From a virus, in the IMG/VR virus record IMGVR_UViG_3300015263_001697, positions 1-22,312 of that record: DNA of 22,312 bases; one strand, given 5' to 3'. This document shows positions 2,142 to 22,312 of the stretch, piece by piece. Both the position numbers and the translations under genes were made by a program. The notes under the pieces are model-generated. The model was not told the origin of the DNA and searched no databases. It saw only the letters and a program-made list of their open reading frames with translations. Positions within the stretch are counted from its first letter, which is position 1; the number at the start of each line of letters is the position of its first letter.

Positions 2142-2515
2142 CCACATCCATCCACGCTCGCTCGCGATCCGTGGACCTATGGCGCATCATGTACGCTGCG
2201 CGCGGGGCCGCTCCGGGGCGATGGTCGGCGGAGCAGACCGCGGCGCATCAGGAGTGGGAGCGGCGGGTTGAGATGGCCGACCACGAGCACGGCGCGGGGG
2301 CAAGCGCCGGCAAGGCGGCGCGGTACGACGCGTACGCGGCTGGGCGCGAGGACGAGGAGGCTGTCCGATGCGAGGACATCCGAATCGCGCGCGAGCTTTA
2401 CCACGCGCTCGAGTCGGCGCTTGCGCGGCCCGACCGGGCAATTGACATATTGCGTGACGCCCTGCGCAGCATGACTTTGCGGGACGTCATGCGCTTGCGA
2501 CCGGGGACACGGTGA
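2138..2515 (+). CDS. Hypothetical helical protein, about 125 residues
   Basis: Function not recognised. The chosen start is a GTG overlapping the HAD gene stop (GTGA), the same coupling used at its own 3' end with the next gene; an ATG at 2189 (MYAARG) is a plausible alternative. The product is Ala/Arg/Glu-rich and mostly helical, with WSAEQTAAHQEWERRVEMADHEHG in the middle and RELYHALESALARPDRAIDILRDALRS near the end. It has no cysteine motif or membrane segment. It lies between the phosphatase and the JAMM protease and is presumably translated with them. Confidence 0.65.
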   Translation: MTTSIHARSRSVDLWRIMYAARGAAPGRWSAEQTAAHQEWERRVEMADHEHGAGASAGKAARYDAYAAGREDEEAVRCEDIRIARELYHALESALARPDRAIDILRDALRSMTLRDVMRLRPGTR

Positions 2516-3075
2516 GGGTTCACAGCACGTGGCTGGGCGACAGCGCGTGTGCAGGACGTCCACTGCCGTCCTTTACGGTTCGCATCGGCCTCGGTGCCTA
2601 CCGGGCCATGGTCGCCTTCGCGCGACGGGCGTGGCCCAACGAGACGGGCAGCGCGCTTGTGGGCACGTGCTCGGACGACGGCTTGGTTGCCACCGTGGTG
2701 CGCGTCATGCCCCGCGAGTTCGTGGCGATCGGCGGCCCGCGGGACTGCCTGGTGGGAAACATGCCCGGGGAGCGCGATTACTTTGCCCGGCTGTTCCAGC
2801 GCAGCCGTGGTCGGGTGTTTTTCGCCGGGGCATGGCATAGCCACCCCGGTGGCGCCGCCCGGTTGAGCGAGGTGGACTGGTACGCGGCGCAACGGATCGC
2901 GGAGACCCCCGCCGCGGAATGCCCGGTGGTGATTCTCGCGGTGCTTGCGCTCGCCACAAACGGAGAGGCGTCGCTCGGGGTGAACGTGTATTCGCGGAAA
3001 GATGGTCGAATACCACTGCTGCGCGTAGAGCTGCGCGTAGACGGGGCGCCGGAGGAGTGTCATGGGCATCGATGA
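2512..3075 (+). CDS. Stand-alone JAB/MPN (JAMM) metalloprotease-like protein
   Basis: The signature is complete: E44 in NETGSALVG, then HSHP (H109, H111), six residues, S119 and D122, i.e. HxHPx6SxxD. These residues hold the catalytic zinc in JAMM isopeptidases. The arrangement resembles the prokaryotic JAB branch seen beside E1/E2-like ubiquitin-type systems and in integrative elements, rather than tail-tip peptidases, because there is no NlpC/P60 part. At 187 residues it is a single domain. No ThiF/E1, E2 or ubiquitin-like gene is visible in this window, so the substrate may be a host conjugate. Removing a host defence conjugate (as CBASS Cap3 does) is one possibility, which is inference only. 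The start is a GTG overlapping the previous stop by 4 bases; the 3' end overlaps the methylase start by 14 bases. Confidence 0.8.
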   Translation: MRVHSTWLGDSACAGRPLPSFTVRIGLGAYRAMVAFARRAWPNETGSALVGTCSDDGLVATVVRVMPREFVAIGGPRDCLVGNMPGERDYFARLFQRSRGRVFFAGAWHSHPGGAARLSEVDWYAAQRIAETPAAECPVVILAVLALATNGEASLGVNVYSRKDGRIPLLRVELRVDGAPEECHGHR

Positions 3076-4342
3076 CCTGGTGGGGTGTTATCCGGCGTTT
3101 GGCGGCAAGCGCGACCCAGCGCCGGAGGTGTGGCGCAGGTTTGGCCGGGTCAGGCAGTACATCGAGCCCTGTTGCTTTTCGGCGGCGGTCTTGCTGCTCG
3201 CTCCCGAGCCAGCGTCGCTCGAGGTGATTGGTGACGTAAACGGATTTGTCGCCAATTTCTGGAGGGCGGTCAAGCACCAGCCGGGAGAGGTGGCGCGGTG
3301 GGCGGACTACCCCGTGTCGCACATCGACCTTGGGGCGCGGCATGTGTGGCTCATGGCGCAGCGCGACCGGCTCGGGGCGAGTCTACAGGACCCCGACTGG
3401 CCGGGTGATGCCAAGGTCGCCGGTTGGTGGTTGTGGGGTCAGTGCTGCTGGATCGGGTCCGGGTGGTGCGAGTGGACGGGGGAGGTGCCTCACGTCGCGG
3501 ATGCTGGGCTCGGCGTGCAAGCGATCGGGAAGGTGCCTCACGTGACCGACGGCGGGCAGGGTGTACAGCCTGTACACCCTGCGTCGATGAGCATCCAGGC
3601 GCTGGGTAAGATCCCACTGGTGGGCAATGCCGGCCGGGGGATACAGCCTGTATCCCCCGGCGAGGACGTGGAACAATCCACTGCTGGCTGTGTACAGGCG
3701 CTCGGCAAGACACCACTGGTCACCACCGGCAAGGGGGTTCAGGCCATGGGGCAGATCCCGTTCCTAAGCACTCCGGGGATGGGTGTGCAGGCCAGCGGCC
3801 ACGTCACCCATCCCCGGAGTGTCGACAGCATCCAAGCGATGGGCCAGATCCCGCTCGTTGGCAACGCTGGCAGGGGCGTGCAGCCTGCACGCCCCTCATC
3901 CCTTGTGGACGCGGTGCTCGACATCCCGGGCGACTTGCTCACGTCGGCGGGACGCGTCGCGTGGGTATGGCTTCATCGCCTCGCTGCTCGGCTCGAGCGG
4001 GTGCGCGTCATCCACGGCGACTGGACGCGTACGCTCAACCATCACTACGGTGGTGACGACACGGCGGTATTCCTCGATCCGCCCTACGAGGGCTACGAGG
4101 GGCTGTACCGGGCGGGATCAATCGCACAGGCTATGGCCGAGTGGGCGCGTGCCAACGCAAACCTAAAGGTCGCGCTTTGTGGCCACGGGGGCGACTACGA
4201 CATGCCCGGCTGGGACGTGTACAAGTGGAGCCGTAGGCGGAACACCTACGGTGGTGCCGGCACGAAGGACGCTGAGTGCATCTGGTTCTCGCCAGCGTGC
4301 CTTAAGCCGAGGACGGCGGGAAGGCAGACGAGTCTGTTTTGA
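3062..4342 (+). CDS. D12-class DNA adenine methylase-like protein with repeat-filled insert
   Basis: The N-terminus FGGKR (residues 13-17) and VIGDVNGFVANFWRAV (55-70), motif IV DPPY (339-342) and the C-terminal IWFSPACL identify the Dam/D12 family, which transfers a methyl group from SAM to adenine N6. Motif I is odd: relatives usually read EPFFGSGAVLL, whereas this protein reads EPCCFSAAVLL (35-45), losing both glycines of the SAM-binding loop; activity is therefore uncertain. Residues 139-280, after GWWLWGQCCWIGSGWC, are a repeat array built on K/Q-I-P-L-V-x3-G-x-G-V-Q-A-M/L-G in the target-recognition region. I recall similar repeats in other phage methylases. The DNA of this insert holds four perfect inverted repeats. 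A plausible role is self-protection of phage DNA or competition with restriction. The start ATG at 3062 lies inside the JAMM gene. Confidence 0.85.
   Translation: MGIDDLVGCYPAFGGKRDPAPEVWRRFGRVRQYIEPCCFSAAVLLLAPEPASLEVIGDVNGFVANFWRAVKHQPGEVARWADYPVSHIDLGARHVWLMAQRDRLGASLQDPDWPGDAKVAGWWLWGQCCWIGSGWCEWTGEVPHVADAGLGVQAIGKVPHVTDGGQGVQPVHPASMSIQALGKIPLVGNAGRGIQPVSPGEDVEQSTAGCVQALGKTPLVTTGKGVQAMGQIPFLSTPGMGVQASGHVTHPRSVDSIQAMGQIPLVGNAGRGVQPARPSSLVDAVLDIPGDLLTSAGRVAWVWLHRLAARLERVRVIHGDWTRTLNHHYGGDDTAVFLDPPYEGYEGLYRAGSIAQAMAEWARANANLKVALCGHGGDYDMPGWDVYKWSRRRNTYGGAGTKDAECIWFSPACLKPRTAGRQTSLF
3556..3582. repeat. Perfect palindrome 1 in the methylase gene
   Basis: The 13-base arm GCAGGGTGTACAG (3556-3568) is followed by a single C (3569) and its exact inverse complement (3570-3582). 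It encodes the G-V-Q-P-V-H-P region. The centre CAG-C-CTG is shared with palindromes 2 and 4, while the outer arm differs. Confidence 0.95.
3633..3661. repeat. Perfect palindrome 2 in the methylase gene
   Basis: The 14-base arm GCCGGGGGATACAG (3633-3646), single centre C (3647) and exact inverse complement (3648-3661). It encodes the G-R-G-I-Q-P-V-S-P-G region. Against palindrome 1 the arms differ, yet both sides changed together so pairing is kept. Confidence 0.95.
3769..3821. repeat. 17-bp inverted repeat 3 in the methylase gene
   Basis: The arm CACTCCGGGGATGGGTG (3769-3785) is perfectly repeated in inverse at 3805-3821. The 19-base loop itself contains a GGCC-AGC-GGCC hairpin (3790-3800). 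It is the longest perfect arm seen in the window. It encodes the P-G-M-G-V-Q-A-S-G-H-V-T-H-P-R-S region. Confidence 0.95.
3872..3896. repeat. Perfect palindrome 4 in the methylase gene
   Basis: The 12-base arm AGGGGCGTGCAG (3872-3883), centre C (3884), exact inverse complement (3885-3896). It encodes the G-R-G-V-Q-P-A-R-P region and shares the CAG-C-CTG centre. Confidence 0.95.
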
Positions 4343-22041: not shown

Positions 22042-22312
22042 CGGGACGGAACACCACATCGGTCAGATAGACCACGCCGAAATCCGGCGTCATGATGTCA
22101 TCATGCTTGGGGACGGTGAGCGGTGGCGAGTCCTTCGCAAGGAGTGGAGGAGCGGTCTGCGGGTTGAGCGGCACTCTGCCACTCCTGTCACATCCTGTGT
22201 GGCAGTTGTCGTGGTGCCGGAAAATCAGAAAGCACGAGAGATGGTGGCCACGGGGGGGGGGCGGCGCCCTGGTCTCCGCGAGATCACCGCACCCGTTGCC
22301 GGGTGCACCCGG
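22022..22312 (+). CDS. Partial hypothetical gene running off the right edge
   Basis: An ATG at 22022, overlapping the preceding gene by 20 bases, opens a frame that stays open to the last base (97 codons). It starts MVALVVDGTEHHIGQIDHAE and continues with a beta-rich pattern (IMLGDGERWRVLRKEWRSGLRVER). A run of ten G at 22252-22261 encodes part of ATGGGR. An indel there would shift the frame, so the part after it is uncertain. No family recognised. Confidence 0.6.
   Translation, partial: MVALVVDGTEHHIGQIDHAEIRRHDVIMLGDGERWRVLRKEWRSGLRVERHSATPVTSCVAVVVVPENQKAREMVATGGGRRPGLREITAPVAGCTR
22252..22261. repeat. Homopolymer run of ten G inside a coding frame
   Basis: The run (22252-22261) lies in the partial last gene. 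Such runs cause polymerase slippage in cells and indels in sequencing. Just beyond it GCACCCG (22289-22295) and CGGGTGC (22300-22306) form a 7-bp-arm hairpin with a 4-base loop. Confidence 0.9.

Follow-up and report, generated by a model that had tools for sequence, protein, structure and literature searches.

The adenine methylase gene of this virus carries four perfect inverted repeats inside a tandem-repeat array, and we consider them quite probably the footprints of DNA-polymerase template switching within that array. The window, a stretch of 22,312 nucleotides (IMG/VR record IMGVR_UViG_3300015263_001697), corresponds to positions 72056-94366 of a 198,045-base IMG/VR contig of the same virus, with five substitutions and one extra G distinguishing the two; the methylase region 3500-3920 is identical in both records. 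Template switching fits best because perfect inverted copies arise beside existing sequence in many places without imperfect ones. Covarying arms are usually taken as proof of functional structure; at the methylase locus, a copying error explains them better.

Palindromes and inserts in the methylase repeat array

The methylase gene, its array, the palindromes and the inserts are positioned in the window as follows.

3062..4342, + strand: Dam-like (D12 class) N6-adenine DNA methylase gene, 426 aa, from ORF calls, profile searches and the model
3479..3934, + strand: repeat array, six diverged 16-residue (48-nt) repeats with the family consensus GxIPHxxDAGxGVQAx
3556..3582, + strand: palindrome 1, 13-bp perfect arms (3556-3568 and 3570-3582), centre C (1 nt)
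3569..3598, + strand: insert after repeat 2, 30 nt, PVHPASMSIQ, containing the right arm of palindrome 1
3633..3661, + strand: palindrome 2, 14-bp perfect arms (3633-3646 and 3648-3661), centre C (1 nt)
3647..3697, + strand: insert after repeat 3, 51 nt, PVSPGEDVEQSTAGCVQ, containing the right arm of palindrome 2
3769..3821, + strand: palindrome 3, 17-bp perfect arms (3769-3785 and 3805-3821), 19 nt spacer
3791..3835, + strand: insert after repeat 5, 45 nt, ASGHVTHPRSVDSIQ, containing the right arm of palindrome 3
3872..3896, + strand: palindrome 4, 12-bp perfect arms (3872-3883 and 3885-3896), centre C (1 nt)
3884..3940, + strand: extra sequence at the array end, after repeat 6, PARPSSLVDAVLDIPGDLL, starting with the right arm of palindrome 4 and lacking a sharp right border

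The array is interposed between the AdoMet-binding half and the DPPY half of the methylase, in the place where, by class order, we take this methylase class to carry its target-recognition region. PHROG 56 (DNA methyltransferase) matches the product at E=2.6e-17. In profile searches neither curated cut-off is passed (Pfam MethyltransfD12, E=0.0029, 17.8 bits against 22; the NCBIfam model, 23.5 bits against 114.85); the array splits the domain. An AlphaFold model using 36 sequences (mean pLDDT 58.9) gives the two halves mostly fair-to-good confidence and leaves the array region shapeless, with residues 128-276 below pLDDT 50 and mostly in the 20s. The top solved-structure match of the model is E. 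coli Dam (E 8.5e-4), DpnM and T4 Dam ranking lower, and all three matches with E of at most 0.001 are E. coli Dam. The modelled Dam fold and the DPPY motif place the product in the Dam / D12 class. Since AlphaFold gives the array no structure, the placement of the inserts within the fold cannot be judged from it; the array is modelled with low confidence and is probably a flexible insert that tolerates extra in-frame residues. This apparent tolerance of in-frame additions makes the loose insert a likely place to see switching.

All four in-frame inverted repeats that the earlier note had picked out, with perfect arms of 13, 14, 17 and 12 bp, are present, and a whole-gene scan (arms of at least 10, spacer up to 20) finds these four and no others. 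Palindromes 1, 2 and 4 share the centre CAG-C-CTG. Palindrome 3 has a different centre and a different switch point from the three alike ones, and an inner GGCC/GGCC stem extends it into a longer near-palindrome. In the 16-residue register, the inserts after repeats 2, 3 and 5 end where the next repeat opens with AL or AM. The inverse copy of the GVQ/GIQ codons begins directly after those codons in repeats 2, 3 and 6, while about five further repeat-like residues precede it in repeat 5. The right arms are confined to the extra sequence beyond the repeat, which makes the left arm the older, repeat-derived part and the right arm the addition. The claim that each right arm is extra in-frame sequence inversely copying the preceding repeat, as a snap-back or strand switch would make it, is thus borne out by the inserts of 30, 51 and 45 nt and by the array end.

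The tail of insert 1, GTCGATGAGCATCCAG, resembles the tail of insert 3, GTCGACAGCATCCAA, though the arms of the two differ and each arm fits its own neighbour. Because the tails are alike while the arms differ, the two inserts probably share an origin, with an arm re-copied afterwards. Beyond the arms, the insert tails lack a clear duplicate in local sequence, and the return point of a template switch is therefore not reconstructed.

Each of the three bounded inserts is flanked directly by a Gln codon on either side (CAG to CAG in two, CAG to CAA in one), an arrangement that also suits ribosome bypassing, in which each insert would be a hairpin skipped from Gln codon to Gln codon to yield a regular 16-residue repeat. 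The hairpin covers the take-off codon in two of the three, and removing the inserts restores a regular array. Hairpin elements skipped by ribosomes are described for yeast mitochondria (cited in the relevant passage of PMC6649704) and for T4 gene 60 (in a passage of PMC11194080). If bypassing were true here, a regular repeat protein would come from a gene interspersed with palindromes that are skipped in translation and that spread by template switching. However, array duplication yields like codons anyway; bypassing would not need the three inserts to be stop-free multiples of three, as they are; a landing Gln is missing from the fourth insert; and no such insert turned up in homologues. We hold bypassing to be highly improbable.

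Chance might produce palindromes through the codon usage of a GC-rich repeat protein, since GC-rich repeats are prone to partial complementarity. The stretch 3479-3934 was randomised 3 x 3,000 times, by synonymous shuffle, codon-usage resampling of the same protein and codon permutation, with spacers up to 20. One arm of at least 12 bp appeared in 7 of the 9,000 randomised arrays and two in none, against four observed. The chance reading is refuted, with a probability next to nil, and the outcome that the earlier note had named as fatal to its own reading, codon-level shuffles giving such arms equally often, did not occur.

Among the three equal-centred palindromes, five of the 12 paired positions vary and all stay Watson-Crick, with no mismatch and no G-T pair, which upholds the claim that arms with the shared CAG-C-CTG centre change on both sides together. 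That pairing rather than sequence is kept holds as a description, but wobble-free perfect arms fit copying better than selection on an RNA hairpin. The mRNA of the region, compared with codon-shuffled controls as the earlier note had proposed, folds 6 SD below 100 synonymous shuffles, and this extra stability is a consequence of the palindromes being present.

Homologous methylases

A conserved role at the DNA or RNA level, which the earlier note had suggested, finds no support in the homologues, which give the outcome named there as refuting: the protein repeats are shared and the DNA palindromes are not. An IMG/VR scan yielded 41 loci, one being the same virus, and three annotated phages and one MAG bring the set to 44 non-self loci with 39 distinct reading frames. 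Between array start and DPPY motif, none of the 44 has a perfect palindrome with arms of at least 9 and a spacer of up to 40, and the seven such arms found, in six loci, all lie outside that stretch. The same protein repeat is nevertheless present in 41 of the 44 (40 IMG/VR loci and the MAG); the motif occurs in all 40 IMG/VR loci, mostly at 48-nt spacing where there are at least two copies. These homologues are distant, with 60-70% identity in the alignment. In the phage methylase MW584155, NAGxGVN-type repeats occupy the corresponding place. The repeat region as a separate query returns the virus itself and five contigs already in the IMG/VR scan; bacterial genomes give one relative, in a Hydrogenedentota MAG, whose array has no palindrome, and plasmids give none. 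With array palindromes of arm at least 9 in 0/44 loci, the palindromes are, by this sequence comparison, a lineage-specific gain and not a conserved device, a feature of one virus within the homologues reached.

Selected hairpins would act as stem-loops in the mRNA or cruciforms in the DNA, either pausing ribosomes or polymerase or regulating the methylase, and selection would have fixed their compensatory changes. The great stability of the mRNA hairpins, down to the 6 SD noted above, and the covariation of arms with pairing intact speak for them. Their absence from 44/44 homologous loci and the lack of wobble pairs in the arms speak against, as does the presence of perfect arms with 0-1 spacers in unrelated genes and at intergenic sites of the contig, which suits no single function. 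Weighing these, we find selected hairpins unlikely, though the least so among the alternatives to template switching.

Several homologous loci have peculiarities of their own. A single motif copy, most often the first, is out of frame in 11 of the 41 loci (L016, L017, L019, L034, L036, L037, L040, L041, L042, L043 and L045). Its spacing to the next copy is 47 nt in seven of the 11, and by eye its DNA is near-identical to that of the in-frame copies in the phage concerned. In L039, a stop lies in the old frame of a shifted repeat copy, so the shifted reading seems the translated one. By eye, an ORF at 1827-3593 in L025 and L026 runs from an adenine-methylase N-terminal half and array into an apparent cytosine-C5 methylase, and an ORF at 16-1632 in L021 places a ParB-like domain ahead of the methylase in one frame.

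Palindromes across the 198-kb contig

The contig contains 12 perfect palindromes with arms of at least 12 bp and a spacer of 0-1 nt, three of them in the methylase; the count includes intergenic sites, among which there may be operators or terminators. For the same class, order-2 Markov simulations average 0.1 (8 runs) or 0.8 (5 runs). As controls we used 20 sets totalling 1,528,001 bases, made up of parts of 14 virus contigs with related methylases together with parts of CcrColossus, phiCbK, 201phi2-1, phiKZ, S4-7 and phage G. They hold seven such palindromes in 1.53 Mb, giving a Fisher value of 1e-7, or 2e-5 without the methylase, where the rate is still ~10x that of the controls; these sets are modest in number and differ in base composition, and the genome-wide result covers one virus. 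Four of the seven lie in 100 kb of phage G, so an excess of zero- or one-spacer palindromes is not unique to this virus.

With spacers of 2-6 nt and arms of at least 12, the contig has 6 palindromes in 198 kb and the controls 33 in 1.53 Mb, mostly in CcrColossus, phiCbK and phage G. An excess over controls is not clear for this class and is confined to spacer 0-1. The Caulobacter phages are rich in palindromes of 2-6-nt spacer, where predicted terminators are annotated, and have one with spacer 0-1; for this reason the genome-wide claim is rested on the 0-1 class. Direct repeats of at least 12 bp show no excess in the 198-kb contig, making the effect specific to inverted repeats.

Among contig palindromes with spacer 0-1 and at least 12 pairs, 12 are perfect and one has a single mismatch, against 0.8 single-mismatch ones in simulations. 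Decayed palindromes are missing, as if the arms were recent or corrected, and arm identity is all-or-none. A second scoring finds 18/18 perfect in the contig and says little alone, because the controls score alike (15/17). The longest arm at spacer 0-6 is at most 15 bp, a ceiling that may reflect hairpin nucleases removing longer palindromes.

Called genes of the contig (128 kb) contain 24 palindromes with arms of 10 or more and spacers up to 8, where synonymous shuffles yield 3.7, and those of 16 control sets (616 kb) contain 9 against 15.3; these counts rest on a home-made gene caller, and several called ORFs are spurious. Other supported genes with an arm of at least 12 encode the sliding clamp (spacer 4) and a GmrSD_N protein (spacer 0), and a spacer-1 palindrome lies in a protein with a sub-threshold DHHA1 match (E 0.00062, 20.6 bits against 25.9). 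Two individual sites may be recorded. At contig positions 108967-108992 (L066:8967-8992), a 26-bp perfect palindrome stands at the start of a gene that is helix-turn-helix-like by eye, and may be an operator. Positions 22292-22312, the last 21 of the window record, are the first part of a 28-bp perfect palindrome, which the contig contains in full (94346-94373).

Snap-back chimaeras from amplification or assembly would produce inverted copies as well. Chimaeric by-products are known from strand-displacement amplification, as a passage of PMC9484634 relates, and the window record itself ends within a palindrome. Against an artefact, the stretch 3500-3920 is identical in two records that differ elsewhere by the five substitutions and one G (possibly from one sample), the reading frame is kept, and the arms of 12-17 bp are not of read length. 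We judge it very unlikely.

A mobile palindromic element tolerating coding sequence, of the Rickettsia palindromic element or REP/RAYT type, would have inserted several times. It could account for in-frame inserts at an identical codon, for the like tails of inserts 1 and 3 and for a 10-nt word common to palindrome 4 and a palindrome in another contig gene. Within the 198-kb contig, however, no insert recurs at a significant level (matches other than to itself span 11-16 nt, with E of at least 0.08), and the palindrome-spreading element envisaged in the earlier note is, as one of fixed sequence, not supported; moreover, the arms mirror their local neighbour and not each other, and the contig has no Y1 transposase match. 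Among the matches listed, the longest words common to the 18 palindromes are 11 nt (methylase palindromes 1 and 2), 10 nt (methylase palindrome 4 and one at 153386) and then 8 nt, so that outside the methylase pairs no word longer than 8 nt is shared. Judged by these words, no common element links the 18, though the 10-nt word is unexplained, and insertion of a mobile element has, in our estimate, only a slight probability.

The contig encodes a Mu-type portal and protease, RecD2, an SbcD-like phosphoesterase with a weak ABC match and a sliding clamp, and DnaB lies in the window. Polymerase families A, B and C-alpha, reverse transcriptase families and Y1 transposase have no match in the 198-kb contig; a Y1 transposase could lie outside the record. 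Viral contigs queried with the JAB-domain gene, DnaB and the portal protein return only the 198-kb record itself and one distant DnaB match. The JAB-domain gene lies immediately upstream of the methylase, at window positions 2512-3075 (Pfam Prok-JAB, E=2.4e-11). It also matches the NCBIfam model of the anti-phage 6A-MBL cap2_3 protein at E=2.1e-15, far below the cut-off, and has no relative in viral contigs except in the same virus. A large gene at contig 51065-54559 (L063:11065-14559) combines a phosphoesterase start with the weak ABC ATPase match and may encode a fused SbcD-SbcC-like nuclease, in a virus rich in palindromes.

Known systems were also considered as candidates and rejected. A Rickettsia-type element has the same sequence in several genes, and this was not found within the 198-kb contig; nor does the contig hold the shared palindrome sequence and Y1 transposase of REP/RAYT, or the reverse transcriptase of a diversity-generating retroelement.

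Template switching and known systems

In the template switching that we favour, the polymerase, having passed the GxGVQ codons, would move to the opposite or nascent strand, copy back 12-17 nt to produce the inverse right arm, and return close to the boundary of the repeat, so that 30-51 nt are added in frame. The unit thus lengthened would then be duplicated inside the array; after the left arm diverged, the same process would re-copy the right arm from the left, so that both change together. The same process is probably active across the virus genome.

Some points weigh against template switching or add to what it must assume. No before-and-after pair shows an event, because the three gene queries of viral contigs found no close relative. 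A centre of 1 nt is too short to serve as the loop of a self-primed hairpin, which makes it necessary to postulate either a strand switch or trimming afterwards. All three bounded inserts are in frame, which needs selection besides mutation. No phage polymerase that might explain the palindrome excess turned up, families A, B and C-alpha having no match in the contig.

The locus offers a natural case for watching template switching add residues to proteins, in a methylase region that presumably reads DNA, and a warning to structure searches that rely on compensatory changes. A search of one open-access library gave, among the matches listed, no account of such palindromes in methylases or other genes of phages. 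The repeat-bearing Dam-family adenine methylases of phages, MW584155 for example, are the same kind of gene, but palindromic inserts occur in 0/44 of the loci examined.

The closest likeness is with the coding palindromes of Nematomorpha (hairworm) mitochondria, which, in the passages of PMC6649704 that describe them, are likewise perfect inverted repeats in translated genes with all-or-none arm identity, are gained and lost between relatives, and have template switching or arm conversion among the mechanisms proposed. The phage palindromes share the traits of such coding palindromes: Watson-Crick-only arms in an ORF, beyond chance, with one arm inversely copying adjacent sequence and absent in (distant) relatives. 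The same passages give the mitochondrial palindromes lengths of up to 284 bp, with both arms encoding conserved protein, whereas the phage arms measure 10-17 bp and the methylase right arms are sequence added in a tandem array.

Template-switch mutations provide the mechanism. Passages of PMC8794818 and PMC8604942 describe reverse-complement copies of a neighbour, multi-base compensation and arm homogenisation in genes, the former with perfect stems formed in one event and changes compensated, the latter with arms homogenised in yeast genes. The quasipalindrome mutations of E. coli, as part of PMC7202029 presents them, are of the same kind, with inverted repeats created or repaired by template switching. 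Unlike these studies, the phage case is without an ancestor-descendant pair; its palindromes lie in duplicated units and its 0-1-spacer class is in genome-wide excess. A short inverted-repeat excess in prokaryote genes was ascribed to template-switching mutagenesis by Ladoukakis and Eyre-Walker (cited in a passage of PMC4060949), where it is called small and concerns 6-9 bp, against phage arms of 12-15 bp at a spacer of 0-1 nt. The template-switch mechanism is thus already known, and what is new here is the genome-wide excess of perfect 0-1-spacer palindromes in a phage.
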